From: a virus
DNA length: 26,572 nt
IMG/VR virus record: IMGVR_UViG_3300025102_000239
Coordinates: 1-26,572 of that record
Strand: one strand, 5' to 3'
The first letter of the stretch is position 1. The number at the start of each line of letters is the position of its first letter. Positions 3,001 to 18,502 of this stretch are shown in pieces. A model generated the notes under the pieces. The model did no database searches. It was not told the origin of the DNA and worked only from the letters and a program-made list of their open reading frames with translations. A program made the translations under genes and the position numbers.

Positions 3001-3420
3001 AGAACATTTGTGGACGTTCCTACCACAGCTTACGCTGAAGGATTTTCTCAAGACCTAGCAAGAGAAATTCCCTTTGCAAGGAAGTTATACGGCACTGTTT
3101 CTGACAGAGAAAACATTGGTATCTTTGTGGAAAAAAGAGATAAGGTTCTTCGCGTTGCAGCAGAGATAAAAGCAGCACAAGATGCAGGGGATAGAGACAG
3201 GCTTATAAGAGCTAGAGAAAAATACTCAGAAGAGTTTAGATTAATCCCTCGTATTAAAGCAATAAACAATGCTATCAAAAAAATATCGCGCCAACAAAAT
3301 GCTGTTCGTGATAATGTAAATATGCCAGATGCACAAAAACAATTGATCTTAGATAGGTTAGATGAAAAGAAGCAAATGCTTTACTCTCGTGGTAATGAGT
3401 TCATGAAAGATTACAGATAG
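1..3420 (+). CDS. Large polyvalent protein, LPD38-type C-terminal part (5' partial)
   Basis: The frame is open from base 1, so the first ATG (61) is internal and the N-terminus lies outside the window. About 1,139 codons are visible. Upstream of that ATG it reads RFAVFDPEVEP, like the end of a preceding domain in phage polyvalent proteins. Next comes a segment with GHGLVHIQQRS and a following LVLER, reminiscent of the BECR/PBECR-type nuclease domains found in such proteins (inference). The C-terminal half (NTSYNPEFMITNLVRD, then ENYNTVIENAIRV, and NASIQGSFALFNALL before a hydrophobic stretch at about residue 780) matches what I know of the LPD38 domain. Family knowledge: polyvalent proteins are multi-domain phage proteins thought to be injected with or to act on incoming DNA. 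The tail is basic and coiled-coil-like. The gene ends 1 base before the stop of the convergent gene. LPD38 assignment is fairly sure; the nuclease domain is tentative. Confidence 0.75.
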   Translation, partial: RFAVFDPEVEPTAEDYRKSYMLERVPVKKSDRGQAPSPVYGKVLEGGTERLVVLPTGLQNNHANGIQDGHGLVHIQQRSHDKDLFMNSKYGRVEEAIRDLMDRWRRQDFQDGEDVISYQNQNKLVLEWRKNITNGSPPLRLVLERGSNVSTRGKEVSTLQPNFYYVKTFFPIMEKKARKTVANTHPYRKSTMLSSLPVQIEQKKYDLSYAKASDFIARKLGYFIPQTKSQDIADKIINKFQDDFISVGRMYQELQQNNVEIPDAFDAYLAEELYHGKVPEELRAREDLYAAPVDAIKELSISQDSIDRLEGLSDAASENGNGFVKQALSSYGSKKQAVGDAVIYATHAKERNAFIRTRDPSNDSGSGMSDAEADAILAWVATIDPDNAARLQRMQSGIRDIIKNTNDSRADYGLIAEDLRQDKNFDNYVPLRGKEDPTDNDMSFTRPKSGSPFGVRGREDRRALGRYDYATDILATVLNQNQNAVIRGERNKVGQAFIGLLESKPNETRGYGRILDKMPTTRALDSSGNVVEIVDRFAADNDNIFVAKVNGKDVYVELADKRLGRSLKGSDGTGSSSLDTINRAMGKLNRYLSNINTSYNPEFMITNLVRDLQTAGVNVQQFDAKGMVGAMSKDYRKAFVGIKRAIVNGDESSEWSQIYREFVRDGGQNSANPMTSIADQVESINKILGDIQEDGVRGKFNKVKNSFVGKGAGSILTLLENYNTVIENAIRVTTYHNLKKQGFSGARAAQAARNVTVNFGKGGEAKTFMNSWYLFYNASIQGSFALFNALLRSKKVQAIWVGLVGAGLFQDFINSLVSEEDEDGILIYDKIPDYILEHNLVLPLGDLGAGRDYLAIPMPYGLNAAVNAGRSLGRTMRGEYSASEGGLSMVMTAVDALNPIGGTENLFNFAVPTAFDPFVEIMRNENYAGVPVYKQAYPGDDSPDSQRYFNNVSPSSKWIAENLNSLTGGTSEISGFVDWNPEIMDYWFEFLTGGIGRFTKRTFVDVPTTAYAEGFSQDLAREIPFARKLYGTVSDRENIGIFVEKRDKVLRVAAEIKAAQDAGDRDRLIRAREKYSEEFRLIPRIKAINNAIKKISRQQNAVRDNVNMPDAQKQLILDRLDEKKQMLYSRGNEFMKDYR

Positions 3421-3432
3421 TTCAATTGAACA
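3419..3432. promoter_or_regulatory. Palindromic site 1 (GTTCAATTGAAC)
   Basis: A perfect 12-bp palindrome, 13 of 14 bases of the consensus AGTTCAATTGAACT. It spans the stop codons of both convergent genes (TAG at 3418-3420, and TGA of the minus-strand gene at 3424-3422). It belongs to a set of seven such sites in the window. Function unknown: operator, terminator or processing site. Confidence 0.5.
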
Positions 3433-3844
3433 TTTTAAATCTGTTTATTGGTATCAGTCCGATTGCCTCTATATCTGATGGATCGTTCCGCCTGTTCCAA
3501 CCTTCACTGCTATACTCAATCTCGCATTGCATATCTAGGTTGCAGTACCCAGTGGCATCAGTCCACTGAACGACAAACAAACACGGCACATTACAAACAT
3601 TCTTTAAGTTCTGTGCCATAAGTAATTTAGTTAAAGATATAAAACATGTAGGGTATTTGTTATGCTCCACACCACGGTGACGCATCTCTACAAACGCCTG
3701 TATCTTTTTCCCTCGCAGCGCAACGTAATCAAACTGTGCGTACTTCATCTGTCGCTGCATCTGACATTGCCACTTCCTCTCTAGCAATGAGGCAAGCTGT
3801 CTTTCGTTGACCTCATCACCAGAGTTTTCATACGTTGGCTTCAT
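3422..3844 (-). CDS. Small PD-(D/E)XK-like nuclease (putative)
   Basis: A 140-residue protein, last gene of the recombination operon. It carries an N-terminal helix with E22 and then a strand pair, FDY (D39) followed by AFVEMRHR (E53, R55). This gives the E...D-Xn-E-X-K/R spacing of restriction-endonuclease-fold nucleases, with Arg where Lys is usual. A later hydrophobic strand (CLFVVQW) fits the fold. Small single-domain nucleases of this type occur in phages for resolving or trimming DNA. The start overlaps the upstream AlpA-like gene by 17 nt and has no strong Shine-Dalgarno, so it is probably translationally coupled. The fold is inferred from motif spacing only; it could be a non-catalytic relative. 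Confidence 0.6.
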   Translation of the reverse strand: MKPTYENSGDEVNERQLASLLERKWQCQMQRQMKYAQFDYVALRGKKIQAFVEMRHRGVEHNKYPTCFISLTKLLMAQNLKNVCNVPCLFVVQWTDATGYCNLDMQCEIEYSSEGWNRRNDPSDIEAIGLIPINRFKMFN

Positions 3845-4016
3845 CTTTACTTTCTATCCACTTAATTACTGATGAGTACTTCCATCGCTTGACCCTCTCA
3901 CTAAACACTATCGGGTCTGGGAAGTTATCTTCTTTCTTAATTATCTTTCTTGCAGACTTGGGGTGCATCGACATCATTCGAGCAACCTCATTCAAATCAA
4001 TTAGTTTTTCTTCCAT
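3828..4016 (-). CDS. AlpA/excisionase-like helix-turn-helix protein
   Basis: A 62-residue basic protein. LIDLNEVARMMSMHPKSARK (about 5-24) looks like the HTH of the AlpA/MerR-like excisionase superfamily, followed by a wing with FPDPIVFSERVKRWKYSSV and the terminal helix IKWIES. The F-P-x-P...R-W pattern is typical of AlpA-type regulators. Such proteins bind DNA as transcription regulators or recombination directionality factors. No integrase is visible, so a regulatory role is more likely here. It overlaps the upstream gene by 16 nt and the downstream gene by 17 nt, so it is embedded in the operon. It is one of two plausible DNA-binding regulators in the window that could act on the repeated palindrome (inference). 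Confidence 0.75.
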   Translation of the reverse strand: MEEKLIDLNEVARMMSMHPKSARKIIKKEDNFPDPIVFSERVKRWKYSSVIKWIESKDEANV

Positions 4017-4927: not shown

Positions 4928-5245
4928 TTAAAATGGGATCTCATCATCCATATCATTTGATACAGATCCTTGTGTGTTACTGTTGTTAGAAGATCTATTG
5001 TGACCACCGTTGCGCTCGTAAAAAACACTAGAGTTTAAAGATAGAAAGTTCATACCTGACTTAGATTGTCTGATCCAAGCAGATAGATCTGCCTTTGGAT
5101 GCTTAACACCCTCATTCAACTGAGCCATCAAGTCTCTAACGACATCACCATCAACCTCAATGTTGCCAGTGTAGTCAGGTTGTCTTTCATTTTGTTTCTT
5201 TCTGTTCTTAAACAGTGCACCTGATGCTTTATCATAATCAGCCAT
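4928..5245 (-). CDS. SSB-like ssDNA-binding protein with acidic tip
   Basis: A 105-residue protein. The N-terminal part (ASGALFKNRKK...PDYTGNIEVDG...LSAWIRQSKSGMNFLSL) looks like the short OB-like or DUF736-like phage proteins that coat ssDNA. A low-complexity linker rich in Asn and Ser follows. It ends in NDMDDEIPF, nearly identical to the DDDIPF tip by which bacterial SSB recruits partner proteins. Start overlaps the annealing-protein stop by 8 nt, with GGAG upstream. Position right after the annealing protein is typical of phage recombination operons. Likely protects ssDNA and recruits replication and recombination enzymes. The core is smaller than a canonical SSB OB fold, so binding should be treated as inferred. 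Confidence 0.72.
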   Translation of the reverse strand: MADYDKASGALFKNRKKQNERQPDYTGNIEVDGDVVRDLMAQLNEGVKHPKADLSAWIRQSKSGMNFLSLNSSVFYERNGGHNRSSNNSNTQGSVSNDMDDEIPF

Positions 5246-5966
5246 TAGCTTTCTCCTTTAGTTCTTTTGCACGTTTCTTAAAATTAGTTAGAAGTTCTTC
5301 GTAGTCGCTTGGTCTATTGGTTTCTAGCAAGTTCAAAGTTGATTTGTTTTTCTTCCAAAGCTTACCAAGACTTTCATAAGTATTGTGTACCTTCATAAGC
5401 TCAGTGAAGGCATCGGTTACCATATCCCAACCGTTAGTCTTCTCAACCGTATCATCCTTAGCACTTAGTACATCTGGTGTAGTGCTCTCAGGGGGCGGTG
5501 GAGTGGGGGTAGTCTCTTGTATAGGGTCAACAACCTCTTTAACCTTTCCCTTACTCTGCCGCTCCTCTCCGTCGCTCTGAGGTAGATCTTCACCTGCATA
5601 TATGTAATGACCTAGACCATGATAAGCTATCGCCTTGGCTAAACCACGCTGAAGTGCGGTGTTAACCTCAAAAGCATCTGGGTTTTGTATCGATTTGTTC
5701 TTGTAGTTAAGAACAGGAAAAAGTTCAGTTGCACTAATTCCCTCGACAGTCACAGTGACCTCAACGAAAGCATATCCGCTTTCATCTTTTATATAAGCCA
5801 TGCCATCATGAAGGTGCTTGGAAAATGTTGCTTCTGGATAATGTTCTTTCAGCTTACCCCAAGCCCAAGCCCAAGAAAGATATGTCATGCCGTTTTTCTT
5901 TTCGGTCTTATCGTTGACATCGATGGCCGACAGTGTTTCCCACACTGATTTCTTTTCTTTACTCAT
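5238..5966 (-). CDS. DUF1071/Sak3-like single-strand annealing protein
   Basis: A 242-residue protein from the ATG at 5966. This start has GGAG about 8 nt upstream and overlaps the exonuclease stop as TAATG; the longer frame (5978) would run into that gene. NGMTYLSWAWAWGKLKEHYP (about 25-44) is the signature of DUF1071, a phage annealing-protein family of the Sak3 group. It is followed by LNYKNKSI, NPDAFEVNTALQRGLAKAIAYHGLG and YIYAGED. After about residue 130 comes a Pro/Thr-rich linker and a basic helical tail ending KKRAKELKEKANG. Annealing proteins pair complementary ssDNA made by the partner exonuclease, here the gene immediately upstream. Family assignment is confident. Confidence 0.85.
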   Translation of the reverse strand: MSKEKKSVWETLSAIDVNDKTEKKNGMTYLSWAWAWGKLKEHYPEATFSKHLHDGMAYIKDESGYAFVEVTVTVEGISATELFPVLNYKNKSIQNPDAFEVNTALQRGLAKAIAYHGLGHYIYAGEDLPQSDGEERQSKGKVKEVVDPIQETTPTPPPPESTTPDVLSAKDDTVEKTNGWDMVTDAFTELMKVHNTYESLGKLWKKNKSTLNLLETNRPSDYEELLTNFKKRAKELKEKANG

Positions 5967-7478: not shown

Positions 7479-9257
7479 GTGCACATCGAACAAGAAGTTC
7501 GTGGCGAGGCTTATAGATTGGGTGAAGGTCAGCATAAAATCAAATGCCCAAGCTGTAGTCACAGCCGCAAAAAGAAAAACGATAAGACACTTTCTCTCCG
7601 CATAGAACAAGACAAAACTTTATATCAGTGTTGGCACTGTGGTCAGCAAGGTATTGTTCCTATGCGAGAGGAGTTACCAGAGATAAAGAGAGAAAAAACA
7701 ATGTCCATTGCAAAAAAAGTTCAAAGAAAAGAATTAACGGAAAGCTCCCTGGTTTGGCTGCAAGAACGAGGGATAAGTAAAGAAACCGCTACTAAAGTTG
7801 GATTGGTTTCAACGCATCATTGGATACAGGCACTAGGAAAAGAAACTGAATGCATCATGTTTCCGTACACCAATGAGGGTCAAGATTATGCGTACAAGAT
7901 TAGATCGATAGAAGGTAAAGGCTTCGCATGTAGCGGTGCACCTCAAACATTTTTTAATATGCAAGGTGTAGAACGTAACGATGATATGATTATTTGTGAG
8001 GGCGAGATGGATGCCCTTGCGTTTATCGAAACAGGTTACGACAGCGTTGTGTCAGTGCCAAATGGTGCGGTCATGAAGGTTGTCGATGGGCAGATAGATC
8101 CTAAAGAAGATAATAAATTCAAGTTCTTATGGGCAGCAAAGAAGAAAATAGATGCGGCTGCTCGTATCATAATCGCCACTGATGCAGACAGTGCAGGTCA
8201 GGCAATGGCGGAAGAGATAGCCAGACGTATCGGCAAGGATCGATGCTTCAAGATAGAGTTCCCAGAGGGATGCAAGGATGCCAACGATGTGCTTCTCAAG
8301 CATGGCAAGGATGGTATCGATAAAGTTGTAGTTGATTGTAAACCTTGGCCTGTCGCGGGATTGTATGACGCTTCTCATTTCTATGAACAACTTGATGAAA
8401 TTTACGAGAACGGTATGGGCAGAGGTGAGAGCACTGGCTACGACAACGTAGATGAATTGTACACGATAGTAGCAGGACAGCTCACGGTTGTTACTGGTCA
8501 CCCATCTTCTGGCAAGTCAGAGTTTGTAGATCAGATCATGATGAACATGGCACAAGAGAAGGGTTGGAAGTTTGCAATATGTTCCTTTGAAAACGAGCCA
8601 AGGATTCACATAGCAAAGCTAATCAGTAAGTACATTCGTAAGCCTTTCTTCCAAGGCTCAATGAAAAGACTTAGCCATAAAGAATTATCAGACGGAAAAG
8701 AATTTGTTCAATCGCACTTTTCTTTTTTGTATCAAGCTGATGGATCAATGTCTTCAATTGATAGCATCATCGAAAGACTAAAGATAGCAGTGCTTAGACA
8801 TGGTGTTAGAGGTGCTATCATAGACCCATACAATTACATTCAAAAGGGAAGAGATGTAAGTGAGACTGAGTGGGTGTCAGACATACTGACAAAGCTCAGA
8901 GTATTTGCTCAGGCTCATGGCATACACTTGTGGTTCGTAGCTCATCCAACAAAGATGATGCGAGGAACAGACGGCAAAGTACCTGCACCAAAAGGATATG
9001 ATATATCTGGTAGTGCAGCATGGTTTGCTAAGGCTGACGTTGGTCTTACTGTGCACAGACCACACCCATCTGGATCTCCTGTATCAGAGATACACATATG
9101 GAAGTGCCGCTTCTCATGGGTTGGTAAGCAAGGAGAGACCGAACTTGACTTCGATGTTCCGACATCAACCTACAGGAAGCATGTACCTGATGAGTTCCTT
9201 GATGTGCCAAATGATTATAACGATGTAGATAATGATGATGATCCCCTCCCATTCTAA
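7479..9257 (+). CDS. Bifunctional DNA primase-helicase (T7 gp4/Twinkle type)
   Basis: A 592-residue protein from GTG 7479, which has AGGAG 8 nt upstream. The longer frame begins at a TTG without a ribosome site and inside a probable promoter. Order of domains: a zinc-binding primase finger (C23-x2-C26, C51-x2-C54); a TOPRIM domain (ICEGEMDAL, about 172-180, and DAD at 235-237); a linker; then a RecA-like helicase with Walker A GHPSSGKS (340-347), Walker B ending D449, the VAHPTK sensor near 487-492 and an Arg finger candidate near R544. The enzyme unwinds DNA as a hexamer and makes primers. It ends in an acidic tail DNDDDPLPF, like T7 gp4, used there to contact the polymerase. No DNA polymerase lies in this window. 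Confidence 0.92.
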   Translation: MHIEQEVRGEAYRLGEGQHKIKCPSCSHSRKKKNDKTLSLRIEQDKTLYQCWHCGQQGIVPMREELPEIKREKTMSIAKKVQRKELTESSLVWLQERGISKETATKVGLVSTHHWIQALGKETECIMFPYTNEGQDYAYKIRSIEGKGFACSGAPQTFFNMQGVERNDDMIICEGEMDALAFIETGYDSVVSVPNGAVMKVVDGQIDPKEDNKFKFLWAAKKKIDAAARIIIATDADSAGQAMAEEIARRIGKDRCFKIEFPEGCKDANDVLLKHGKDGIDKVVVDCKPWPVAGLYDASHFYEQLDEIYENGMGRGESTGYDNVDELYTIVAGQLTVVTGHPSSGKSEFVDQIMMNMAQEKGWKFAICSFENEPRIHIAKLISKYIRKPFFQGSMKRLSHKELSDGKEFVQSHFSFLYQADGSMSSIDSIIERLKIAVLRHGVRGAIIDPYNYIQKGRDVSETEWVSDILTKLRVFAQAHGIHLWFVAHPTKMMRGTDGKVPAPKGYDISGSAAWFAKADVGLTVHRPHPSGSPVSEIHIWKCRFSWVGKQGETELDFDVPTSTYRKHVPDEFLDVPNDYNDVDNDDDPLPF

Positions 9258-9405
9258 AAAGTTTTTGATTGTTCGTGAGGGAGAAGAAGCACCAGTCATT
9301 CATGTCTATGTAGACGGTAAAGAGGTGGCAGTGCTTGAGCTTACGCATCATGAAACACTGAGGCTCGTCAGCAACTTGTGTGATAAGATGATTGAAAGTA
9401 TTTGA
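9238..9405 (+). CDS. Small hypothetical protein, 55 aa
   Basis: The frame overlaps the helicase end by 20 nt and reads KKFLIVREGEEAPVIHVYVDGKEV, then AVLELTHHETLRLVSNLC and ends KMIESI. It has the look of a strand-strand-strand-helix mini-protein rather than a shadow frame. Three in-frame ATGs sit in tandem (9232, 9235, 9238) and none has a good ribosome site, so the start is uncertain and re-initiation after the helicase is likely. No family recognised. Followed by a structured RNA segment and a terminator, so it is the last gene of this transcript. Confidence 0.6.
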   Translation: MIPSHSKKFLIVREGEEAPVIHVYVDGKEVAVLELTHHETLRLVSNLCDKMIESI

Positions 9406-9413
9406 CGTTCTTA

Positions 9414-9481
9414 TATCGGAGTGCTAGATGTTGCGTCAGGATATTGGTTCAGACATACATCTGGATTTCTCCACTCTGATA
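9414..9481 (+). ncRNA. Candidate structured RNA (nested stems)
   Basis: Outer helix 9414-9423 pairs with 9472-9481 (10 bp, one G-U). Inner helix 9426-9431 pairs with 9457-9462 (AGATGT/ACATCT). A further GUC/GAC pairing is possible at 9435-9437/9452-9454. The block starts 9 nt after the small-gene stop and ends 2 nt before an intrinsic terminator, so it is either a separate small RNA or a 3'-UTR structure. A tRNA was considered and rejected, because there is no T-arm. No known RNA family recognised. Confidence 0.45.
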
Positions 9482-9483
9482 CT

Positions 9484-9552: not shown

Positions 9553-9560
9553 CTAGTTTA

Positions 9561-9881: not shown

Positions 9882-9886
9882 CTCTT

Positions 9887-10639
9887 TTAGAAGTCCACAA
9901 GTTCCTTCACAACGGTATCCTTGATCCTTCTTTTAAGCAAGCTCTCTGCACGAGAGAACTCTTGATGTGTAGCAAGTATAGTATCGTCATACGTTTCGTA
10001 CTTGAATACCCAACCTTTTTCTATGGTAGCATTATCACGGTAAACTTTAAGAACATCACATTCGTAAGCAACGACACCATCCTTGACTAGTCTGCCAAGG
10101 TTTTTCTTATAGGCATTCATGATAAATCTTTCGCCATCACCTGCTTTGACAGTGGCAATACCCTCTGCGTATACAGTCTTACCCCAACCAAGAGGTACAT
10201 CGACATTGAAGTTGCTGCCGTATCTACCTGTTTGTTCTTCAACGTAAGGTTTACTGCCTCTTTCACATCTGACCTCCCAACCCCTAGATGGAAAGGCTTC
10301 ATTGAGTTCACTTGCTGCCCAAACAACATTGCTTTCGATGGCTTTCTTGATAACGCTTTTATCTTCTACATACTTAGCTTTACTTCTGTGACCCTTGATC
10401 AACTTTAGAAAACTATGAGCATATAGAACCACATTCCTGATGTTGTCTCTGCCTATGCTGTCGCTCATTAGCTTGAGAACTGTAGGCGCTCCATCATAAT
10501 CAAAGTTTTTCCAGTTGTATGAACTGGCATCTTGACAAAACTCTTTGATCTCATCACCAGAAAAACCATACGTTTTGAAGAACCTACTTAGTTCTTCCCT
10601 TGCGTGTTCTATTACTTTTAGATTGTTCTTGTATTCCAT
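9887..10639 (-). CDS. Hypothetical phage protein, 250 aa
   Basis: Unrecognised. Start set at ATG 10639 (MEYKNNLKVIEHAREEL), with GAGTGAG upstream, rather than a GTG 9 nt earlier. The N-terminal 90 residues are helical. The C-terminal half is mixed alpha/beta and basic (WEVRCERGSKPYVEEQ, then NVDVPLGWGKTVYAEGIAT, ending RRIKDTVVKELVDF). No catalytic motif or membrane segment is visible. A palindromic site sits 20 nt upstream of the start, at the spacing also seen before two other genes, so expression may be controlled through it. Confidence 0.72.
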   Translation of the reverse strand: MEYKNNLKVIEHAREELSRFFKTYGFSGDEIKEFCQDASSYNWKNFDYDGAPTVLKLMSDSIGRDNIRNVVLYAHSFLKLIKGHRSKAKYVEDKSVIKKAIESNVVWAASELNEAFPSRGWEVRCERGSKPYVEEQTGRYGSNFNVDVPLGWGKTVYAEGIATVKAGDGERFIMNAYKKNLGRLVKDGVVAYECDVLKVYRDNATIEKGWVFKYETYDDTILATHQEFSRAESLLKRRIKDTVVKELVDF

Positions 10640-10775
10640 TTTTCTCACTCTCTGTTTTTAGTTCTATTGAACTTTTTTCCCAAGGTGCTTTTGATAACGA
10701 CACCTTCATATTATTATTGGCAAGCTTACGTTTGTAACCTAACCATTCTTTTTCTGCTGTTGTGAAACGCTTCAT
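10584..10775 (-). CDS. Hypothetical basic protein, 63 aa
   Basis: A 63-residue lysine-rich protein (MKRFTTAEKEWLGYKRKLANN...). It starts within the stop of the preceding gene (ATGA overlap) and overlaps the next gene by 56 nt, more than the other junctions here, so the C-terminal third may be fortuitous. The palindromic site lies inside its frame, encoding SSIEL. No family recognised. It could be a small nucleic-acid-binding protein, by charge only. Confidence 0.5.
   Translation of the reverse strand: MKRFTTAEKEWLGYKRKLANNNMKVSLSKAPWEKSSIELKTESEKNGIQEQSKSNRTRKGRTK
10660..10673. promoter_or_regulatory. Palindromic site 2 (AGTTCTATTGAACT)
   Basis: 13 of 14 consensus positions, flanked by T-runs on both sides. 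It is 20 nt upstream of the start of the 250-aa minus-strand gene. The same core recurs at 13539 and 18131. Confidence 0.55.
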
Positions 10776-11928: not shown

Positions 11929-12037
11929 TTTCGTACTCCTTTGAAATCATATCAAATAATTTTTTTGCTTCGTAATCTCCGCGATCTGCCATGTCTGCCA
12001 AGTATCGCAAAACCATTTGTTTTAGTTCATCACTCAT
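11912..12037 (-). CDS. Small hypothetical protein, 41 aa
   Basis: Reads MSDELKQMVLRYLADMADRG, DYEAKKLFDMIS and ends YENELPD: an acidic amphipathic helical peptide. It has a strong Shine-Dalgarno (GGAGGATCAAG) and overlaps the upstream stop by 8 nt, which supports it despite its size. No family recognised. Confidence 0.62.
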   Translation of the reverse strand: MSDELKQMVLRYLADMADRGDYEAKKLFDMISKEYENELPD

Positions 12038-12290
12038 CTTGATCCTCCGCTTGCAAGAAGTCAGCAAAGGTCTGACACATCTGAGTTATAACCGTAGCAA
12101 GTGCCATGTCTCTTTGCTTTTCTTCTGTCGTAAGCATGAGCACACCGCCCAATGCTCTCGCCAAACTGACCATCGCCATCTTGCCATCAGCTTCATTCTT
12201 CTTGAGATACTTCATCATCATTTTATATGCTTTCTTAAAGCTCTCATCTGCATCAAAGTCCGCTCGTACTACTGTTGTATATTTAGGCAT
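12030..12290 (-). CDS. Hypothetical protein, 86 aa
   Basis: A helical protein (FKKAYKMMMKYLKKNEADGK, then MAMVSLARALGGVLMLTTEE and ATVITQMCQTFADFLQAEDQ), methionine-rich, with a moderately hydrophobic central helix that is too polar for a clear membrane segment. Start ATG 12290 has AAAGGAGTGAG upstream. No family recognised. First of three overlapping genes running to 11779. Confidence 0.65.
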   Translation of the reverse strand: MPKYTTVVRADFDADESFKKAYKMMMKYLKKNEADGKMAMVSLARALGGVLMLTTEEKQRDMALATVITQMCQTFADFLQAEDQDE

Positions 12291-12308
12291 TTCTCACTCC
12301 TTTAATTT

Positions 12309-12386
12309 TCATATGTTCCACCATCCTAATGCTGCACCCACTGACCAGAGGATGCAGATTGTTATTGTTGCCACACTATAAATCAT
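12309..12386 (-). CDS. Possible 25-aa membrane peptide
   Basis: An ATG 8 nt after the stop of the VWA gene, with AGGTGA before it, opens MIYSVATITICILWSVGAAL followed by GWWNI. This is one hydrophobic helix and little else. Its position between two well-spaced genes and its ribosome site support translation. It could be a small membrane effector of the MoxR-VWA unit or a leader peptide. Very short, so uncertain. Confidence 0.4.
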   Translation of the reverse strand: MIYSVATITICILWSVGAALGWWNI

Positions 12387-12394
12387 GAGGTCAC

Positions 12395-13522
12395 CTACGT
12401 TGTCAGGTAGGTGGTGTCTCCCCAAGGTGCTTCCTTAGACCTTAGATATGACGAGACCCACAGTGTTGGGTAGTGTGGTGGGTTCTCTGGGTAATCCCAG
12501 ATCTCCAGATCACTGAGGTAGACCATGTTGTCTACTGGCAACTGGTGCTCTTCAATGTAGTCGAACACTGGCTTCACTCTCGTACCACCACGCCCATTGA
12601 TCTCAATCTTATCGATCTCCTCACCTTGCTCGTAACGTCTGACCGTTTGTATCTGAGCATCACAAGTTATCACCGTGATTGATCGTGGCTTGATGTCTTC
12701 ACTGATAGCATTGATCTCACCAAGGAAGAACTTTAGCTCTCGCTTAGATACAGACCCACTTGTATCGATGCCGACAACCACATCACCTGCACCAATCTTT
12801 TCGATAGACGGTGAGATGATACCAGTCATGTGATACATCTTTTTCTGAGGCTTGCGAAAGCTGTAGTCATCTGGCTGATCACCACCAACAAACCTACGCA
12901 TCACGTCACGCCAGTCAACTTGACTGCGCTCCATCTCCTCAATCAAAGACTTGATAGCAGAGGGTAGCTTACCAATTGCCTTAGCCCCAGATGCAGCCAT
13001 CATTACCTTGGTATCAATGTCTGCTTCCATCTGCTTGACCTCAGCCTCTGACATGTCACCGCCATCATCCTTCTTGGCATCCTTGACCTCACCCATAGCA
13101 GCGCCTTGAGCATACTTTTTCTTGGCATCATCAGGTAGTCGATCAAAGATAGCTTCTGCACTGAGACCCTTGTACTCTGGATCAATCAGCCCACCCTCTG
13201 GGAGAGTAAAGCCATTGTCCACAAGCACTTGATTGATTGCAAAGTCAGTCGCAATATTCCAAAGCTCAGGGTCACGCACACCACGTCTGAGGTGATGCTT
13301 GAATACAATGTGCAAAACCTCATGAGCCATGACACCTACGGTCTCTTCTTGATCCATTGTATCAACGAATGATGGTGACCATAAGATAGCCTTGCCATCA
13401 GTACACATAGTCGGGATGTCATCCTCTGACTTGACGTTGATTGATAGGCACATTGACCCAAAGAAGGGATGCTTGACAACTAGGCGCGTAACAGCGCGAG
13501 ACACTTTCATTTGTGCGTCCAT
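12395..13522 (-). CDS. VWA-like / putative metallopeptidase protein (DUF2201)
   Basis: A 375-residue two-domain protein. The N-terminal domain has H67-E68-x-x-H71 (VMAHEVLHIVFKHH) and a downstream acidic candidate ligand D93, as in the putative metallopeptidase part of DUF2201 proteins. A charged linker (about 145-175) leads to a C-terminal VWA-like domain with a MIDAS D-x-S-x-S (D253, S255, S257), a GGT (T314) and LSD (D338). Such proteins pair with MoxR AAA+ ATPases, here the next gene upstream in the same orientation. Families of this pair act as ATP-driven chaperones or metal-insertion machines; the phage target is unknown. All key residues are intact. Start has AGGAGAAAATT, and a palindromic site lies 16 nt upstream of it. 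Confidence 0.85.
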   Translation of the reverse strand: MDAQMKVSRAVTRLVVKHPFFGSMCLSINVKSEDDIPTMCTDGKAILWSPSFVDTMDQEETVGVMAHEVLHIVFKHHLRRGVRDPELWNIATDFAINQVLVDNGFTLPEGGLIDPEYKGLSAEAIFDRLPDDAKKKYAQGAAMGEVKDAKKDDGGDMSEAEVKQMEADIDTKVMMAASGAKAIGKLPSAIKSLIEEMERSQVDWRDVMRRFVGGDQPDDYSFRKPQKKMYHMTGIISPSIEKIGAGDVVVGIDTSGSVSKRELKFFLGEINAISEDIKPRSITVITCDAQIQTVRRYEQGEEIDKIEINGRGGTRVKPVFDYIEEHQLPVDNMVYLSDLEIWDYPENPPHYPTLWVSSYLRSKEAPWGDTTYLTT

Positions 13523-13538
13523 AATTTTCTCCTAAAAA

Positions 13539-13552
13539 AGTTCAATAGAACT
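13539..13552. promoter_or_regulatory. Palindromic site 3 (AGTTCTATTGAACT on - strand)
   Basis: Lies between a hairpin following the MoxR gene and the AGGAG of the VWA gene, 16 nt before its ATG. The minus strand continues with six T, as at sites 2, 5 and 6. Suggests separate control of the VWA gene. Confidence 0.55.
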
Positions 13553-13567
13553 AAAAGCTGAAATGGT

Positions 13568-13597
13568 AAGCAGGCATATTGACGTGTACGCCTGCTT
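13568..13597 (-). terminator. Hairpin after MoxR gene
   Basis: AAGCAGGC (13568-13575) and GCCTGCTT (13590-13597) form an 8-bp stem with a 14-nt loop, 8 nt after the MoxR stop. A CTTTT stretch follows some 10 nt later. Probably a partial terminator between the ATPase and VWA genes. Confidence 0.5.
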
Positions 13598-13605
13598 TAC
13601 TGTGA

Positions 13606-14619
13606 TTAAAGAATAAGGTTCTTGCCTACTGACATGATCCATTCTCTGATCGATGCATCAGCCTTGAGGTCTCGCTTGAGATCATCAGTGCGGTTCATTG
13701 CATCCTTGATCACAAAGGCAGCGAACTCCTGCTGAGGTAGCCGCTTTAGATATGTCACGATGTTCTTGGCGTTCTTGCCAGTCATCTTGGATGACAATGC
13801 AGCGCATACAGCATACTGAACATCAGGTGCATCAGGAATATCTGCACTTGCAGGATTAGCAATCAGCTTATCGATGTCAGGTACAACATCATACACCTTG
13901 AGGAAGCCATTGAACTCAGCCGTAGCCGCACGTCCAACCTGACCTGCGATAGCTTCAATCTGATTGACTGGATCAAGAGACCATTTGAGGATAGTAGCGA
14001 CACGCTCCCATGATCTAGGAGATGGGCAAGCATTCTCATCACGATTGAACTTGTGCAACCACTCAGGACGGAAGCGCAAGAATGCAGCAATACGCTCATC
14101 AATACGCTTGCTGTAGTAGTAGCCAATCGTATCTTCTAGGTCAGCCTCAATGTCTAGGAACATCAAGCGATCTTTGAGGTGAGAAGGCATGTTGTTTGTA
14201 CCTGCGCGGTCAGACATGCGGTTACCTGCCGCAATGATATGCCAACCCTCTGGAAGGTGATGTTTGCCTATGCGTCTCTCATTGACCAACTGTGCAGCAA
14301 TGTTTTGGTTAGACACTGGTGCTTGTGGTAGCTCATCAAGGAATAAGATACCCTTGCCATCTCGTGGCATCCAGTCAGGACATCTGCGATCCATCGTCTC
14401 GCCATCAGCATTGGGTAGTACCCAACCTGCAAGCTCACCTGCATCATACTGAGCCAGTGATAATATCTGACAACCAATGCTTAATTCCTTGGCGATCTCA
14501 TGGACAATGGAAGTCTTGCCAATCCCTGCACCTGATACAAGGTACGGCACACAATCTAATGTGTCAGTCTTGACTGTAATAGCGGCCTTAGCGATGGCCT
14601 TTGCTTGTGATAGTTTCAT
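13606..14619 (-). CDS. MoxR-family AAA+ ATPase
   Basis: A 337-residue protein from ATG 14619, coupled to the upstream stop as TAATG and preceded by GAGGG; the longer frame starts in the neighbour. Walker A SGAGIGKTS (29-37), Walker B ILFLDE (91-96), sensor-1 N133 (AAGNRMSD) and Arg-finger candidate R151 (LKDRLMF) are all present. LPEGWHIIAAGNR and the helix-bundle C-terminus fit MoxR/dynein-like AAA+ proteins. These form hexamers that work with VWA partners, and such a partner is the next gene. The likely role is remodelling a phage or host protein; whether for assembly, host takeover or defence evasion is unknown. Confidence 0.85.
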   Translation of the reverse strand: MKLSQAKAIAKAAITVKTDTLDCVPYLVSGAGIGKTSIVHEIAKELSIGCQILSLAQYDAGELAGWVLPNADGETMDRRCPDWMPRDGKGILFLDELPQAPVSNQNIAAQLVNERRIGKHHLPEGWHIIAAGNRMSDRAGTNNMPSHLKDRLMFLDIEADLEDTIGYYYSKRIDERIAAFLRFRPEWLHKFNRDENACPSPRSWERVATILKWSLDPVNQIEAIAGQVGRAATAEFNGFLKVYDVVPDIDKLIANPASADIPDAPDVQYAVCAALSSKMTGKNAKNIVTYLKRLPQQEFAAFVIKDAMNRTDDLKRDLKADASIREWIMSVGKNLIL

Positions 14620-14870
14620 TAGGATTTTCCCTCTATTTCTGAAAGCAGTTCGTCTGCTTTTCTGATTGCAATTACAAAATTTAGACATTCGATTTTTACA
14701 GAGCATGTCTCTACTCTGTCTCGTTTGGAGCGTAGACCGCTCTCTTTTTCTTCTTTTACAGCATTGTCAAAATCCTCATTTGCTTTGACAAGCATGTCGT
14801 TTAGTTCTTGCACACTGAATTTTTTGTATGCCTCAACTATGTTCATACTGTAGGTGTCTTCTAGTTCCAT
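14619..14870 (-). CDS. Hypothetical coiled-coil protein, 83 aa
   Basis: Mostly helical and highly charged (QELNDMLVKANEDFDNAVKE, then SVKIECLNFVIAIRKADELL, ending SEIEGKS), with heptad-like spacing suggesting a short coiled coil. No family recognised. It has a GAGGGGG site before its ATG and a TAATG junction with the MoxR gene, so the two are co-translated. It might be an adaptor for the ATPase, by position only. Confidence 0.65.
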   Translation of the reverse strand: MELEDTYSMNIVEAYKKFSVQELNDMLVKANEDFDNAVKEEKESGLRSKRDRVETCSVKIECLNFVIAIRKADELLSEIEGKS

Positions 14871-14875
14871 TGTGA

Positions 14876-15160
14876 TTACCCCCTCTTAGGTATCTTTATG
14901 TATTCTCTGGTTTCGATATGCTTGAACATCAGGTATTCAAACCCATCTAACGAACAAGTTCCCATGTACATGTAGTCATTTATCAATGCCTTTTTTGCCA
15001 TGTTGAAAGCTTCTCTTACTTTTTCTTTCATGTCATAATCTGTTATTGAAAGTGGGGGATCTGAGTATACTAGCTTTGTGCTATCTACATTGAGCGATTT
15101 TCCAATTTCCTCATTAAAGAAACTTCCAAAATATTCATTAGGATCTTGATTTTTTTTCAT
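14876..15160 (-). CDS. Hypothetical protein, 94 aa
   Basis: Unrecognised alpha/beta protein (NEYFGSFFNEEIGKSLNVD, then MKEKVREAFNMAKKALINDY and LDGFEYLMFKHIETREYIKI). No membrane segment or metal motif. First gene after the terminator at 15196-15220, with a palindromic site 20 nt upstream of the ATG and an AGAGAGAGAGG ribosome site, so it probably opens the transcript that carries MoxR. Confidence 0.65.
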   Translation of the reverse strand: MKKNQDPNEYFGSFFNEEIGKSLNVDSTKLVYSDPPLSITDYDMKEKVREAFNMAKKALINDYMYMGTCSLDGFEYLMFKHIETREYIKIPKRG

Positions 15161-15180
15161 GTTTACCTCTCTCTCTAAAA

Positions 15181-15194
15181 AGTTCTATTGCACT
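15181..15194. promoter_or_regulatory. Palindromic site 4 (AGTTCTATTGCACT)
   Basis: 12 of 14 consensus positions. It lies 1 nt beyond the T-run of a terminator and 20 nt before the next start codon, which is where a promoter or operator of a new transcript would be expected. Confidence 0.5.
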
Positions 15195-15195
15195 T

Positions 15196-15220
15196 AAAAA
15201 TTCAGCCCCCGAAAGGGCTG
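15196..15220 (-). terminator. Intrinsic terminator, - strand
   Basis: CAGCCC (15220-15215) and GGGCTG (15208-15203) form a stem over a 6-nt loop, followed on the minus strand by AA and five T (15200-15196). It ends the transcript from the 17-kb end of the cluster. Confidence 0.75.
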
Positions 15221-15223
15221 AGA

Positions 15224-15334
15224 TTAAAATGCAAGTACTACTATGAGTATGCCCACTGTTAAGGCAGTGAAGGCGATGCCAGAAGCAACGCCCTCAACAA
15301 AGATGATGCGCTTTTCGCGCTTGCTCAGTCTCAT
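15224..15334 (-). CDS. Small membrane protein, 36 aa
   Basis: Reads MRLSKREKRIIFVEG and then a hydrophobic helix ASGIAFTALTVGILIVVLAF. A positively charged N-terminus and one membrane segment imply the N-in orientation. It starts in an ATGA overlap with the upstream 228-aa gene and is followed directly by a terminator, which strongly supports it as a real gene. No family recognised. A holin-like or pinholin-like role is possible but unproven. Confidence 0.65.
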   Translation of the reverse strand: MRLSKREKRIIFVEGVASGIAFTALTVGILIVVLAF

Positions 15335-16017
15335 GCTGCGTCAGTGAACTCAGCAACTGTGCTATCAACTGCTACATTTTCCTCAGCAGCCTCAGCCTCA
15401 GCAGCCTTAGCAGCCTCTGAGTTGCGGTATGCTGTACGAGCAGCTTTAAGCTCACGCATGGCGTTCTCGAACTCATCAAGCTCTTCATCAGTCAGGCCAT
15501 CTTTGAATACATCACCTTGCACTCTCTTGCCGTTCTCATCTTTTTTGTTTGAGAACTTGCCGACCACTTGCTCTGCGAGGCGCTGCGCTTTTGATTTGTC
15601 GCTCTCACCTTTGACCGCTTTGGCAAGCTTGTTCTCGCTGTCGATCTCTAGCGTTGCAAGATCCTTGACGATAGCATCAGGTGTGTACTGGGTTGGTATT
15701 TCACCAAAATGATCCTTGAGCAATACGATAGCACCTACAGAATTTTCAAGGTAGCGTTTGGCAGTAGCCTCTTTTACACCTGCCTGTTCAACTAATGAGC
15801 CTTTGAGGATCTTAGAGTTGGCGCGTGGTAGGTTGCCCTTGACTAGTTTGACCTGAGCGATGGCAGCGATAACCTCGCCATAAGCTCCCATTTTTGCGCT
15901 GTTAGCAGCGGCATTGTTTTCTTTGTTTACACCCTTGAGAGAGGCGATCTCTTGCTCCGCGTTGTAGACGTTGTTGATTGCGGTATCGGATACGGTAAAA
16001 GTTTTTGAATTTGTCAT
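15331..16017 (-). CDS. Hypothetical protein, 228 aa
   Basis: Start at ATG 16017 (MTNSKTFTVSDTAINNVYNA), with AAGGATG upstream; the longer frame begins at a TTG without a site. Alanine- and lysine-rich and helical. The central part (KGSLVEQAGVKEATAKRYLE) has an HTH look, but not clearly enough to assign. The C-terminus is acidic and alanine-rich (SEAAKAAEAEAAEENVAVD). No membrane or metal motif. It could be a structural or DNA-associated protein made in quantity, given its composition. Two hairpins lie in its leader (16053-16088). Family not recognised. Confidence 0.72.
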   Translation of the reverse strand: MTNSKTFTVSDTAINNVYNAEQEIASLKGVNKENNAAANSAKMGAYGEVIAAIAQVKLVKGNLPRANSKILKGSLVEQAGVKEATAKRYLENSVGAIVLLKDHFGEIPTQYTPDAIVKDLATLEIDSENKLAKAVKGESDKSKAQRLAEQVVGKFSNKKDENGKRVQGDVFKDGLTDEELDEFENAMRELKAARTAYRNSEAAKAAEAEAAEENVAVDSTVAEFTDAA

Positions 16018-16052
16018 CTGTTCATCCTTTTTGGCTGACAAGTTTCTGTTAT

Positions 16053-16088
16053 CGGCATGATGCCGCGACTACAGCCCCTAGAGGCTGC
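16053..16088 (-). other. Two leader hairpins
   Basis: CGGCA/TGCCG (16053-16057/16061-16065) and ACAGCC/GGCTGC (16071-16076/16083-16088, one wobble pair) lie between two genes of the cluster. Neither has a T-run. Related stems occur at 16664, 17039 and 15203, suggesting a common processing or stabilising role. Confidence 0.45.
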
Positions 16089-16105
16089 ACTCATGGTCTC
16101 ATGAT

Positions 16106-16330
16106 TTACCATTCTCCTGTTGATTGAATTTCTGATCGTCTTTCATCTCGCATCTTAGCGACATCTCTGACTGTTTTTATTGCAGCGTGAAGGGTCATAA
16201 TGTTTGCCTCTTCTAGCATGGCAAGGATCATTGCCTCGTTGTAACATTCCACAATGATATCCCATCCATGCGTTTCATAATTTATGGCTGCATATTCTTT
16301 TACTTTTCTAGCCAACTCTTGCTGTGTCAT
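16106..16330 (-). CDS. Hypothetical protein, 74 aa
   Basis: A helical, mildly basic protein (QQELARKVKEYAAINYETHG, then DIIVECYNEAMILAMLEEAN and TLHAAIKTVRDVAKMRDERR). No family recognised. The AGGAGAAGACA site before the ATG is strong. Part of the small-gene string leading into the MoxR region. Confidence 0.68.
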   Translation of the reverse strand: MTQQELARKVKEYAAINYETHGWDIIVECYNEAMILAMLEEANIMTLHAAIKTVRDVAKMRDERRSEIQSTGEW

Positions 16331-16360
16331 TGTCTTCTCCTCTCTGATTATTTTGAACGG

Positions 16361-16636
16361 TTATATGAAACCGTGACGCTCATCCTCAATTGTGCGTTGC
16401 TCCATGCCATCTGAGAGCCAAGCCTCAGTGCCGTAAGGGATGCGACAATCCCAAAGCTCTGCGTTGAGGTAGCCACGTTCTGTTATCCGATCCCTAAACG
16501 CTACAGCATTATCATGCTCAATGAAGTTAACGTCTGACCTCGAATACTCACGGCCTTGCTCATCGCTAACCATGACCACCCAACGATCATTAAAATCCAT
16601 AGTCACTTGGGCGTAATCAACTTTAATTTTAACCAT
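16361..16636 (-). CDS. Hypothetical protein, 91 aa
   Basis: Start at ATG 16636 (MVKIKVDYAQVTMDFNDRW), 6 nt after AAGGAG. The longer frame begins at a GTG inside a hairpin. Strand-rich (WVVMVSDEQGREYSRSDVNF) and acidic. No family recognised. It has a general similarity of composition and size to its upstream neighbour (GREYSRSDV versus GHEYSHEEF), so the two may be related; that is a weak inference. Confidence 0.66.
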   Translation of the reverse strand: MVKIKVDYAQVTMDFNDRWVVMVSDEQGREYSRSDVNFIEHDNAVAFRDRITERGYLNAELWDCRIPYGTEAWLSDGMEQRTIEDERHGFI

Positions 16637-16663
16637 TGTTTGCTCCTTCATAAAATTAATGAT

Positions 16664-16679
16664 GCAGCCCGTAGGCTGC
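16664..16679 (-). other. Intercistronic hairpin with UACG loop
   Basis: GCAGCC (16664-16669) pairs with GGCTGC (16674-16679). On the minus strand the loop is UACG, a stable tetraloop. Lies between two small genes, with no T-run. Confidence 0.5.
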
Positions 16680-16689
16680 ACTGTTAATC

Positions 16690-17004
16690 TTACGCTGCGA
16701 TTGGTGCAGGGAAACGCTTGCCTATCTGCTTTACCTTAGCGGTAAGAAAAGCAAGGTGATAAAGGTTATCAGGATCAAATTCCTCATGAGAGTACTCGTG
16801 ACCCTCTGTCTCATGCAGCCAACTATTGGTGCGTACTACATAACGATCACCATCGAAGTCAGTGTAGCTGTATTTAAATGCACATCTAACACCGCCTGAT
16901 CTAATTTTTAGCCATGCTGTTCTTCCAGTATCGGCAACTATTGTAGTCGTTGTCTCAGTTCCATAAGCTGAGAATGAAGTAATTTCAGTATTGATTGATG
17001 CCAT
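16690..17004 (-). CDS. Hypothetical protein, 104 aa
   Basis: First gene of the minus-strand cluster. Strand-rich, with a Thr-rich stretch (YGTETTTTIVADTGRTAWL) and an acidic-histidine segment (HETEGHEYSHEEFDPDN). No family recognised. The GGAGGTAAACCACA site before ATG 17004 is strong. Its promoter must lie in the 17005-17500 region, but no convincing hexamers were found. A CGGCA/TGCCG hairpin (17039-17057) lies in the leader. Confidence 0.68.
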   Translation of the reverse strand: MASINTEITSFSAYGTETTTTIVADTGRTAWLKIRSGGVRCAFKYSYTDFDGDRYVVRTNSWLHETEGHEYSHEEFDPDNLYHLAFLTAKVKQIGKRFPAPIAA

Positions 17005-17511
17005 TGTGGTTTACCTCCGTTAAATGAAACCATGACAACGGCAACTGATTGCTGCCGCTCTCTATTGTTTCACTCTGTGCTATCTCTGCGTCACTACTAC
17101 TGAAAGCTGTTATTCTCTACATTCAACCACCTCACTGACCCTATTCTCAGTGGCGGCACTCGCAGCGTTTACATTAAGCAGAAATTTTTATGCACTAAAT
17201 TTACACATGCATTGTCGGTCAGTCCTACTTGCATCTCTCTTTTACAGACCGTCCAGTATATCTGGTGGCGTGTGCCTCGCGGCGAGGTGCTTTGGTGAGC
17301 CTATTGGCAGGGCTTGTGAGCCTATGTTCGGAGGGATTGTGAGGGTTAAAACCTCGTTGCTTCCCTGCGTCTGTCATTCTTCTCGCATATCTAGATACCT
17401 ATGTAAACCCTTATATTCCCTTTTATTCTCTTTTATTCTCTTATTATCAGTATTAGCCAATAAATAAAGGGATATCGTGACAAAAAAAAATTTAGATGTT
17501 AGGATAAAAAA
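17005..17511. other. Non-coding region upstream of terS; candidate packaging site
   Basis: About 500 bp without a convincing gene between divergent units. It holds a hairpin at 17039-17057, the palindrome CCTCGC-G-GCGAGG (17275-17287), three GTGAG boxes at 17295, 17316 and 17339 (21 and 23 bp apart, roughly two helical turns; the first two extend to GTGAGCCTAT), and TTTTATTCTC-type tandem repeats at about 17417-17445. Iterated sites next to terS are what a pac or cos region, or an origin, would show. Inference only. Confidence 0.4.
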
Positions 17512-17525
17512 AGTTCTATTGCACT
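17512..17525. promoter_or_regulatory. Palindromic site 5 (AGTTCTATTGCACT)
   Basis: Identical 14-mer to site 4, embedded in A7...T5 flanks, about 100 nt upstream of the terS start and at the end of the repeat-rich non-coding region. Confidence 0.5.
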
Positions 17526-17625
17526 TTTTCTGAGTATCGTTTGCCCCAGATTAAGTGAAAATATCAGGGTGATTTGTTTTGCCCAAAATCCCGTAAGCAA
17601 GCGCAGCGTTAGAAGGATTGCCATA

Positions 17626-18132
17626 GTGAGTAATAAGAAACCTAAGTTAAGAGTAGTACAGGGTAATAAGAAGAATAATGGCACTAGGAAGAAGAGTGCC
17701 ACCAGTAAGAGAACAGGGTTAACAGATAAGCAAGAGGCATTTGCTTTAGCAGTGTTCGAGGGTAATAACTTTAGTGAAGCATACAGGATAGCATACGATG
17801 CCTCAAACATGAGTGCAGCATGTATTCATACAGAGGCTTGTCTACTAGTACAGAACCCAAAGGTCTCCGAAAGGTTAGAGGTCTTAAATGCTGATAGGGT
17901 TAAGCAGCAGCGCATGTTGAGCCTCTCTCGAAGTGATTTCGTTTTGAAACAGCTTACAGATGAGGCAACCAATCAGGATAACTCAGATGGTGCAAGAGTA
18001 AGAGCATTAGAACTTCTAGGTAAATCAGTTGCACTATTTACGGACAAGGTAGAAACGGAAGATAAGACAGAGCGAGACCCTGAGACGATTAAGGCTGAGT
18101 TAGAAGCTAGACTGAATAGGCTGTTAGGATAG
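17626..18132 (+). CDS. terS: Terminase small subunit (Terminase_2-like)
   Basis: A 168-residue protein from GTG 17626, with AAGGA 8 nt upstream; the longer frame starts at a GTG without a site. After a lysine-rich N-terminus, LTDKQEAFALAVFEGNNFSE (32-51) and AYRIAYDASNMSAACIHTEA lead to LLVQNPKVSERLE. This is the HTH-containing core of the Terminase_2 family. The rest is helical and ends in EAELEARLNRLLG-type sequence, which may contact the large subunit. TerS recognises the packaging site, often just upstream of or within its own gene. Unusually, it is separated from terL by 1.8 kb carrying opposite-strand genes. Its TAG stop is part of palindromic site 6. Confidence 0.85.
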   Translation: MSNKKPKLRVVQGNKKNNGTRKKSATSKRTGLTDKQEAFALAVFEGNNFSEAYRIAYDASNMSAACIHTEACLLVQNPKVSERLEVLNADRVKQQRMLSLSRSDFVLKQLTDEATNQDNSDGARVRALELLGKSVALFTDKVETEDKTERDPETIKAELEARLNRLLG

Positions 18133-18144
18133 TTCTATTGAACT
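18131..18144. promoter_or_regulatory. Palindromic site 6 (AGTTCTATTGAACT)
   Basis: Starts within the terS stop codon and continues into TTTTTAG. It is the same 18-base string (AGTTCTATTGAACTTTTT) seen at sites 2 and 3. Confidence 0.55.
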
Positions 18145-18340
18145 TTTTAGTGTGTGTTTTGGGTCGAGCCGTGCGTGTATAAATTTATAATGAGTTAGCT
18201 TACCCCACCTACCCCCGACCCCCCTGTCTGCGTGACGCCCACGCTCGTACGTATACATGATGTTCCACACAAACGATTACAAACCCCTAGGAATCCTACA
18301 CCCCCTCTATAATATACATTCAAAAAACGAAATATGTTAA
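18145..18340. other. Non-coding region after terS with C-rich tract
   Basis: No gene is seen. It holds the palindrome TATAAATTTATA, a C-rich strand at 18203-18224 (runs of 4, 2, 5 and 6 C, with a G-quadruplex-like complement), and a GCGTG/CACGC hairpin near 18229-18243. Strong strand asymmetry next to terS makes it a second candidate for a packaging or replication site. Confidence 0.4.
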
Positions 18341-18502
18341 TCACTTAGACTTTGCTCGCCTGTTATATTTCTTTTTATAGCGAGCTTTTTTTATTATTGG
18401 TGCATTGGTTCTAACTATATTGGAATTACTGCTGATGATTAGGATAGTGCCGTCATCATCTAGTGCCGCCCACTTGTATTTGTTCAATTGAACTAATTTC
18501 AC
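18341..18502 (-). CDS. Small basic protein, 53 aa
   Basis: Begins at a GTG overlapping the upstream TGA (GTGA). Reads MKLVQLNKYKWAALDDDGTI, LIISSNSNIVRTNAPIIKKA and a strongly basic tail RYKKKYNRRAKSK. A short beta-hairpin plus a positively charged tail suggests nucleic-acid binding (charge only). The palindromic site 7 lies in its first codons, and a + strand terminator is embedded in its tail-coding DNA. No family recognised. Confidence 0.55.
   Translation of the reverse strand: MKLVQLNKYKWAALDDDGTILIISSNSNIVRTNAPIIKKARYKKKYNRRAKSK
18354..18392 (+). terminator. Intrinsic terminator after terS, + strand
   Basis: GCTCGC (18354-18359) and GCGAGC (18380-18385) close a 20-nt loop that contains an ATA/TAT pairing, then seven T (18386-18392). 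It would stop terS transcription before it runs into the opposing genes. Confidence 0.7.
18481..18494. promoter_or_regulatory. Palindromic site 7 (TGTTCAATTGAACT)
   Basis: A perfect 12-bp core palindrome, 13 of 14 consensus positions, within codons 3 to 7 of the 53-aa basic protein gene. Confidence 0.5.

Follow-up and report, generated by a model that had tools for sequence, protein, structure and literature searches.

Dispersed palindromes at gene boundaries of marine phages: candidate binding sites of a phage-encoded protein

The virus record IMGVR_UViG_3300025102_000239 (26,572 bases, analysed over its whole length and called the window here) carries a 14-bp palindrome at several of its gene boundaries, which raises the question of what this repeat does and which protein might bind it. 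The gene content of the window is that of a tailed phage with kinship to marine podovirus-type phages, and the relatives of its TerL at 52-59% identity include phages 023Pt_psg01, HTVC027P, DSL-LC04 and HTVC023P. A sequence-only reading of this DNA had listed seven palindromes, starting at 3419, 10660, 13539, 15181, 17512, 18131 and 18481, and all of them were found at these positions. When AGTTCWATTGAACT was searched on both strands with up to three mismatches, 29 matches were detected in the window compared to 7.9 (standard deviation 3.8) in 100 shuffles, and no single shuffle gave as many. The stricter pattern AGTTC-N4-GMACT was present 6 times, versus a mean of 0.10 (maximum 2) in 300 dinucleotide shuffles, and WGTTC-N4-GMACW 10 times, versus a mean of 0.42 (maximum 2) in the same number of shuffles. 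The explanation that we favour, and to which we give an even chance, is that a single dimeric protein encoded by the phage binds the palindromes and thereby governs transcription units over the whole genome, the conserved protein cl3 being the first and cl7 the second candidate.

Three of the sites stand shortly before start codons, as had been proposed. Those at 10660..10673 (AGTTCTATTGAACT), 13539..13552 and 15181..15194 (AGTTCTATTGCACT) end 20, 16 and 20 nt ahead of the cl7 gene (9887..10639, minus strand), of a gene for a VWA-type protein (12395..13522, minus strand) and of the ATG of the 14876-15160 gene, respectively. The site at 15181 lies between this last gene and a terminator-like hairpin directly upstream (15202..15221, read as 15221-15202 on the minus strand), in agreement with the claim that one site directly follows a terminator. 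The stop-codon sites were likewise confirmed: that at 3419..3432 (AGTTCAATTGAACA) lies at the convergent stops of the 61-3420 and 3422-3844 genes and overlaps the stop of the former, and that at 18131..18144 (AGTTCTATTGAACT) overlaps the stop codon of the terminase small subunit gene (terS; 17626..18132, plus strand). A site also precedes terS, at 17512..17525 (AGTTCTATTGCACT), just after a sigma70-like promoter, so that it would cover about +1 to +14 if this promoter is used, and the last one (18481..18494, TGTTCAATTGAACT) follows the stop of the 18499-18660 gene at a distance of 4 nt. The claim that the identical 14-mer is followed by at least five T has to be corrected for 18131, where four T lie beyond it. 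A degenerate candidate with three mismatches (AGTTCTTTTGCACG, 5260..5273) stands 14 nt before the SSB-like gene 4928-5245, and weaker matches at 5722, 8705 and 23695 are all within conserved genes and may be coding coincidence. With its GTTC...GAAC arms, the palindrome would not be a classic LexA box.

De novo searches in relatives revealed one palindrome family per lineage: AGTTC-N4-GAACT in lineage A, AAGTTCA-N2-TGAACTT in B, AAAGTT-N6-AACTTT in C and AAGTTA-N4-TAACTT in D. A scan with the VWA protein yielded 74 loci. The palindrome was present with at most one mismatch in every one of L001-L043, where VWA identity is 61% or more, and in all of these 43 except L043 a copy lies no more than 300 nt upstream of the VWA gene (42 of 43); in this form the palindrome was absent from L044-L046, L051 and L056-L068, and a 5.8-kb fragment with a VWA protein of 73% identity (L050) had no site. 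With the pattern relaxed at one end, the matches in 14 whole or long records comprised 61 at tandem, 22 at convergent and 16 at divergent junctions, 59 in genes and 5 at record edges; many of the in-gene matches repeat a small set of conserved coding positions (helicase, portal, Sak-like). When the stricter AGTTC-N4-GMACT was used, 79 of 89 sites in 12 lineage-A records were not wholly within a gene, in DNA of which 5-15% is non-coding, whereas this held for only 16 of 25 sites in two lineage-B records. Five records tested by shuffling had 8-15 sites each, compared to 0.13-0.23 expected. The window and record G001 are the same virus (98% of 31-mers common) and both enter the 12-record, 14-record and half-site tallies, and the calls in or outside genes come from a simple gene caller that possibly misplaced small genes and starts. 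In relatives, an excess at gene boundaries is present and orthologous places are kept rather than changing freely. The palindrome is, as an observation, real and strong.

The places occupied by the sites follow a defined anatomy. Of the lineage-A sites no farther than 32 nt from a start codon, 32 are non-redundant, and 28 of these stand 13-22 nt ahead of it, close upstream of the ribosome-binding site (flanks 75% or more alike were merged in this count, and windows too short were dropped here and in the promoter counts below); convergent and divergent sites lie outside this rule. Several sites are directly behind a GC-rich hairpin. Most lineage-C examples show the order stop codon, hairpin, palindrome, T-run, ribosome-binding site and start, and in G026 (L314:7030-9412) the MoxR, VWA and cl7 genes each have a similar cassette of hairpin, palindrome and ribosome-binding site upstream. 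The convergent sites adjoin or overlap stop codons, such as those of terS and of a giant polyvalent gene; the site at the latter stop, at 3419 in the window, recurs in relatives, in G014 with another palindrome. Iteron-like repeats of CGTCTACCG(A/T)... were also seen directly beside a palindrome in G004 (L110:6200-6270) and at a like place in G007 and G008, and are possibly an origin or a promoter.

Does the palindrome act as DNA or as RNA? A hairpin formed by the RNA of the leader or of the 3' end, governing translation or mRNA decay, would agree with the near-fixed distance to the ribosome-binding site and with the overlap of stop codons. As a further point for such a hairpin and against a DNA site, perfect 14-mers have folding energies of -3.0 to -3.6 kcal/mol, and a copy taken with its full A and T flanks reaches -8.1 kcal/mol. 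However, the GCACT variant, which close relatives keep at the places of 15181 and 17512, disrupts the stem (0 kcal/mol as RNA), and the compensated double variant was absent from the 12 lineage-A records, compared to 25 single-variant and 54 perfect non-coding sites. Furthermore, the lineage-C palindrome as RNA reaches only -0.2 kcal/mol, and comparison of relatives revealed the palindrome centre in both orientations relative to the gene. Thus, a stable stem maintained by compensation, as in terminators and regulatory RNA hairpins, was not found, and the hairpin suggested by the sequence-only reading was rejected for its missing compensation and poor folding; we consider it very unlikely.

Because hairpin-breaking variants are conserved without compensation, the palindromes behave as DNA sites and not as RNA sites. 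At least one perfect AGTTCAA half was present in 80 of 91 non-coding lineage-A sites and in 16 of 16 lineage-B sites, versus 36 of 76 coding look-alikes. On balance, this looks like the trace expected from a DNA-binding dimer with one strong half. The dimer-bound operator, another of the earlier proposals, is favoured by the symmetric arms, by these perfect halves and by the sigma70-like promoters that adjoin or overlap two classes of sites.

Regarding these promoters, the best sigma70 score had a mean of 5.84 at 46 tandem sites and of 6.3 in 22 divergent readings, compared to 4.74 (standard deviation 2.39) at 451 control starts; for the difference between tandem sites and controls, p was 0.007, and 0.016 when each downstream gene family contributed a single value (n 24). 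Upstream of terS, a sigma70-like promoter (GTGACA-17-TAGGAT, with TG before the second hexamer; 17477..17505, plus strand) ends 6 bp before the site at 17512. A like pair stands at the same place in G002, G003, G004, G007, G008 and G011, making seven records with the window, and the promoter was found again by a separate scan. At the cl26 gene, the palindrome of five records shares bases with the second hexamer (TAAAGT). These predicted promoter positions at terS and cl26 fit a repressor operator. Between a leftward operon and terS, the window also has a stretch of over 500 bp (17005-17568) in which no gene was called with confidence and which contains the terS promoter and one palindrome.

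Other promoter data count against repression as a general explanation. The 34 convergent readings scored 4.48, which is the control level and no promoter excess, a strong sigma70 promoter was absent at many tandem sites, and a plain consensus scan of 9000-19900 gave 18 promoter-like sites versus 23.8 in shuffles. The many sites without a strong sigma70 promoter would be explained if the palindrome were itself a phage-specific promoter element, at which a phage factor and the host RNA polymerase activate rather than repress, and the location of several sites between a terminator-like hairpin and the ribosome-binding site is compatible with this. Nevertheless, the sites on convergent stop codons would then drive antisense transcripts, the terS and cl26 sites already have -35/-10 pairs of their own, and a placement on +1 or -10 suits repression better, so we regard a promoter element as unlikely. 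The promoters at two site classes and the near-fixed distance to the ribosome-binding site also speak against palindromes kept as boundary sequences for recombination between gene modules, or as partition-like sites. The 15181-type site does remain in relatives while the gene behind it varies, and recombination at such repeats has been reported for cluster O phages (PMC4351075), but overall this explanation appears most improbable.

The palindrome changes between lineages, while similar places are occupied. In lineage D (G014), the lineage's own palindrome is found at the orthologous positions ahead of cl7 and where the polyvalent gene (15966-24281, minus strand) stops; AAGTT-N6-AACTT was not found in L185 and L189 of this lineage. 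As the palindrome-bearing loci span GC contents of 0.33 to 0.60, a single host factor is unlikely to be the binder. Arrays of TACTAG words were also seen in non-coding stretches of lineage D (L180:5993-6110 and 17285-17355; L188:8418-8535), with like words in G025. A more distant lineage, comprising G017 (L106-L108), G018 (L109), L056, L057 and L060, has another dispersed palindrome, TATTAGNNNNNCTAATA, often shortly after stop codons. In G017 and G018 it has the form TATTAG-N5-CTAATA, with 7 of 7 copies non-coding in G017, which also carries an integrase and an HTH_3 gene. The PF00589 integrase was detected in 0 of the 10 cl3-bearing records, which are possibly fragments and in which serine integrases were not searched.

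The AlpA-like and Fis-like proteins, named as binders in the sequence-only reading, were rejected on their distribution: 4 of 14 motif-bearing records, two of them the same virus, carry the Fis-like gene, and the AlpA-like gene was undetected in the palindrome-bearing G015 and G016 (lineage B) and G014 (lineage D), of which G014 and G016 are or may be fragments. An HTH_3 repressor as common binder was also rejected, as it was found in 2 of the 10 cl3-bearing records (G007 and G008) and in G017. Among the smaller genes without assigned function, cl3 and cl7 were found in lineages A, B, C and D. In the window, cl3 (15331..16017, minus strand) encodes a conserved unknown protein of 228 aa and cl7 a conserved unknown basic protein of 250 aa, whose own gene is preceded by the palindrome; both belong to a block cl3-MoxR-VWA-cl7 with a MoxR-type AAA ATPase (13606..14619, minus strand) and the VWA-type protein, a name assigned from the sequence (best PHROG phrog_1314). 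In G017, G018 and four isolates, no match to cl3 or cl7 was better than E 0.04. All 80 cl3 relatives that were kept (61 new and 19 earlier), out of 125 found, carry a site, in loci that had been fetched around cl3, and several cl3 loci in the site and covariation counts are stretches of the same contigs.

A less biased test was based on TerL, with 25 of the 80 TerL loci, taken from the longer contigs (12.7 kb or more), many of the records being fragments. Two of the 25 records, G025 and G026, had cl3. G026 showed 12 AGTT-N6-AACT, 5 of them non-coding, versus 0.5 in shuffled sequence, whereas the other 23 records had 20 in total versus 17 for the reversed control. The pattern GTTA-N4-TAAC was examined too; neither pattern was in clear excess in the long cl3-less records G033, G036, G046 and G047 (57-59 kb), and the 20 records remaining after G025, G026 and G030-G032 had 11 GTTA-N4-TAAC versus 20 for the control.

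The cl3 model, of moderate confidence (pLDDT, the predicted local distance difference test, 73.9), has a long helix followed by two helices (65-77 and 83-104) that are arranged like a helix-turn-helix. Residue 88, which lies in helix 83-104, is R where the inner base of the palindrome is C, in 509 of 518 half-sites from 103 loci including repeats of the same contigs, and K, V or M go with mostly A; G026 has Y and G025 has L at this position, and neither favours C as the inner base. This covariation is no more than suggestive.

Several results weigh against cl3 as the binder. In G025, 5 of 5 GTTA-N4-TAAC are non-coding, but this shortened pattern was chosen post hoc, and AGTT-N6-AACT has one match there, inside a gene. 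GTTA-N4-TAAC was counted 8 times in G030 (0.6 in shuffled sequence), 3 times in its relative G031 and twice in G032, records in which cl3 was not detected. Therefore, the TerL test supports cl3 less cleanly than the first count. As lineages A and B group together in a tree of VWA and MoxR (support 90), the covariation at residue 88 may be explained by one event, and columns with a similar pattern were found not only in cl3 (3 of 218) but also in the control proteins VWA (2 of 374), MoxR (3 of 337) and cl7 (1 of 246). No Pfam hit over the cut-off and no PDB match by Foldseek (best E 0.31) was obtained for cl3, and its profile search against PDB sequences gave E near 1 only; a fold search of cl7 against the PDB gave no convincing match, an absence from lists that excludes nothing for either protein. 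Finally, cl7 has the same distribution as cl3, and because it is mostly basic and its own gene is palindrome-preceded in many records, it remains a serious rival to cl3 as candidate binder.

With respect to G030, 4 of its 8 GTTA-N4-TAAC are not wholly in a gene, and one is on a stop codon just before the next gene. As only head, tail and packaging families matched among those tested, and none of the early families, replication genes included, this record looks like the late half of a genome, so that the lack of a cl3 match may merely reflect the fragment. The palindrome of G030 (L316, L317), G031 (L318) and G032 (L319) is mostly GTTAANNTTAAC, in 8, 3 and 2 copies, some of them on stop codons, and all three records resemble fragments of the late half. 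When bacterial genomes were scanned with cl3, one partial relative was found at the end of a 6.7-kb contig labelled as an Akkermansiaceae metagenome-assembled genome, with no AGTT-N6-AACT there; this may be a stray phage contig.

It is quite possible that another protein, phage- or host-encoded, binds the palindrome and that cl3 and cl7 co-occur with it merely by descent. Replication genes, namely SSB, Sak-like, exonuclease and primase-helicase, also occur in most palindrome-bearing records, as does the giant polyvalent gene, and G030-G032, though fragments, have their palindrome with no cl3 detected. In contrast, the range of GC contents given above suggests different hosts, and several of the motif-bearing records have no AlpA-like or Fis-like gene. 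L070 and L073, which have relatives of SSB, Sak, MoxR and VWA but no significant cl3 or cl7, showed no palindrome family in the stretches examined and 0 AGTTC-N4-GMACT in the whole records.

With one phage-encoded dimer as the binder, the predicted mechanism would be as follows. The protein would bind palindromes across the whole phage genome. Sites near starts follow the previous gene, often behind a hairpin, and precede the next ribosome-binding site; there they would cover part of the -10/+1 region of a compact promoter, and the bound protein would be a repressor. At convergent stops, the same protein would be a roadblock to read-through, similarly to a stoperator, a role that we purely infer, because the convergent sites show no promoter excess. 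A wider version, which we think improbable, is that cl3 founds a new family of phage-wide dimeric DNA-binding regulators, in marine phages without a detected integrase, that would act both as operator-bound repressors and as roadblocks; residue 88 would set the palindrome, and the syntenic MoxR-VWA pair would be a chaperone that remodels cl3 and so releases the genes. The link of MoxR-VWA to regulation is speculation, because a MoxR-vWA pair of jumbo phages has been proposed to have a role in virion assembly (PMC7824862).

Apart from the sites, the head module of the window includes a GroES-like co-chaperonin gene (24140-24508), which is annotated in four isolates too. The Rfam scan of the window at gathering score gave 0 matches, nothing was found by the tRNA scan, and a near-identity search among phage records gave no match.

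When known systems were compared, on the basis of the accessible parts of the papers, the inverted repeats of Microbacterium cluster EG were alike in standing about 14-22 bp before starts, as the 28 of 32 lineage-A sites at 13-22 nt do, their function not being given there (PMC7302621). These repeats differ in sequence (GATCAACCNNGGTTGATC), in hosts and in being described only for genes at right genome ends, and sites at convergent stops, promoter overlap, palindrome change and a candidate binder go beyond that description (PMC7302621). Cluster O mycobacteriophages, such as Corndog, carry 17-bp palindromic repeats in 34 copies with invariant arms, 11 of them clearly within genes; a dimeric regulator was suggested, and a transcriptional role was deemed unlikely by the authors (PMC4351075). 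Many inverted-repeat copies, partly intergenic and conserved between relatives, are common to cluster O and the phages studied here, whereas in the latter most sites lie outside genes, one of the two halves can vary, and two classes of sites have a promoter beside them (PMC4351075). As in clusters O and EG, many copies of one inverted repeat are here mostly in short intergenic stretches, with the 79 of 89 and, for lineage B, 16 of 25 sites counted above.

The stoperators of cluster A mycobacteriophages resemble the present sites in being many and genome-wide, mostly without a promoter, with a specificity that diverges with the repressor (PMC6550527). However, they are 13-bp sites oriented with transcription and bound by the immunity repressor of temperate phages, whereas the sites here are palindromic and unoriented, and no PF00589 integrase was found in the 10 cl3-bearing records (PMC6550527). 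An asymmetric, transcription-oriented site, as in a stoperator, was not found. Cluster K mycobacteriophages have conserved start-linked sequences and inverted repeats with a subcluster-specific consensus, the start-associated sequences (SAS), 13 bp long, asymmetric and immediately upstream of start sites, and the extended start-associated sequences (ESAS), repeats with variable spacers, in contrast to the compact palindrome ahead of the ribosome-binding site described here (PMC3203893). In the literature covered, which misses most subscription papers, there was no match for the letters AGTTCAATTGAACT and no report was found of this repeat in this phage group. Such repeats are known, but unexplained, in actinobacteriophages, and what is new is their presence in marine phages, the candidate binders and the switching of the palindrome.

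In several clusters of actinobacteriophages, palindromes scattered between genes are on record, and the literature covered does not explain them. Many relatives with diverging palindromes and two named candidates make the function of such a repeat directly testable by in vitro binding. If the proposal is true, a single protein acting on operators and gene ends over the whole genome would be an added regulatory strategy of marine phages.

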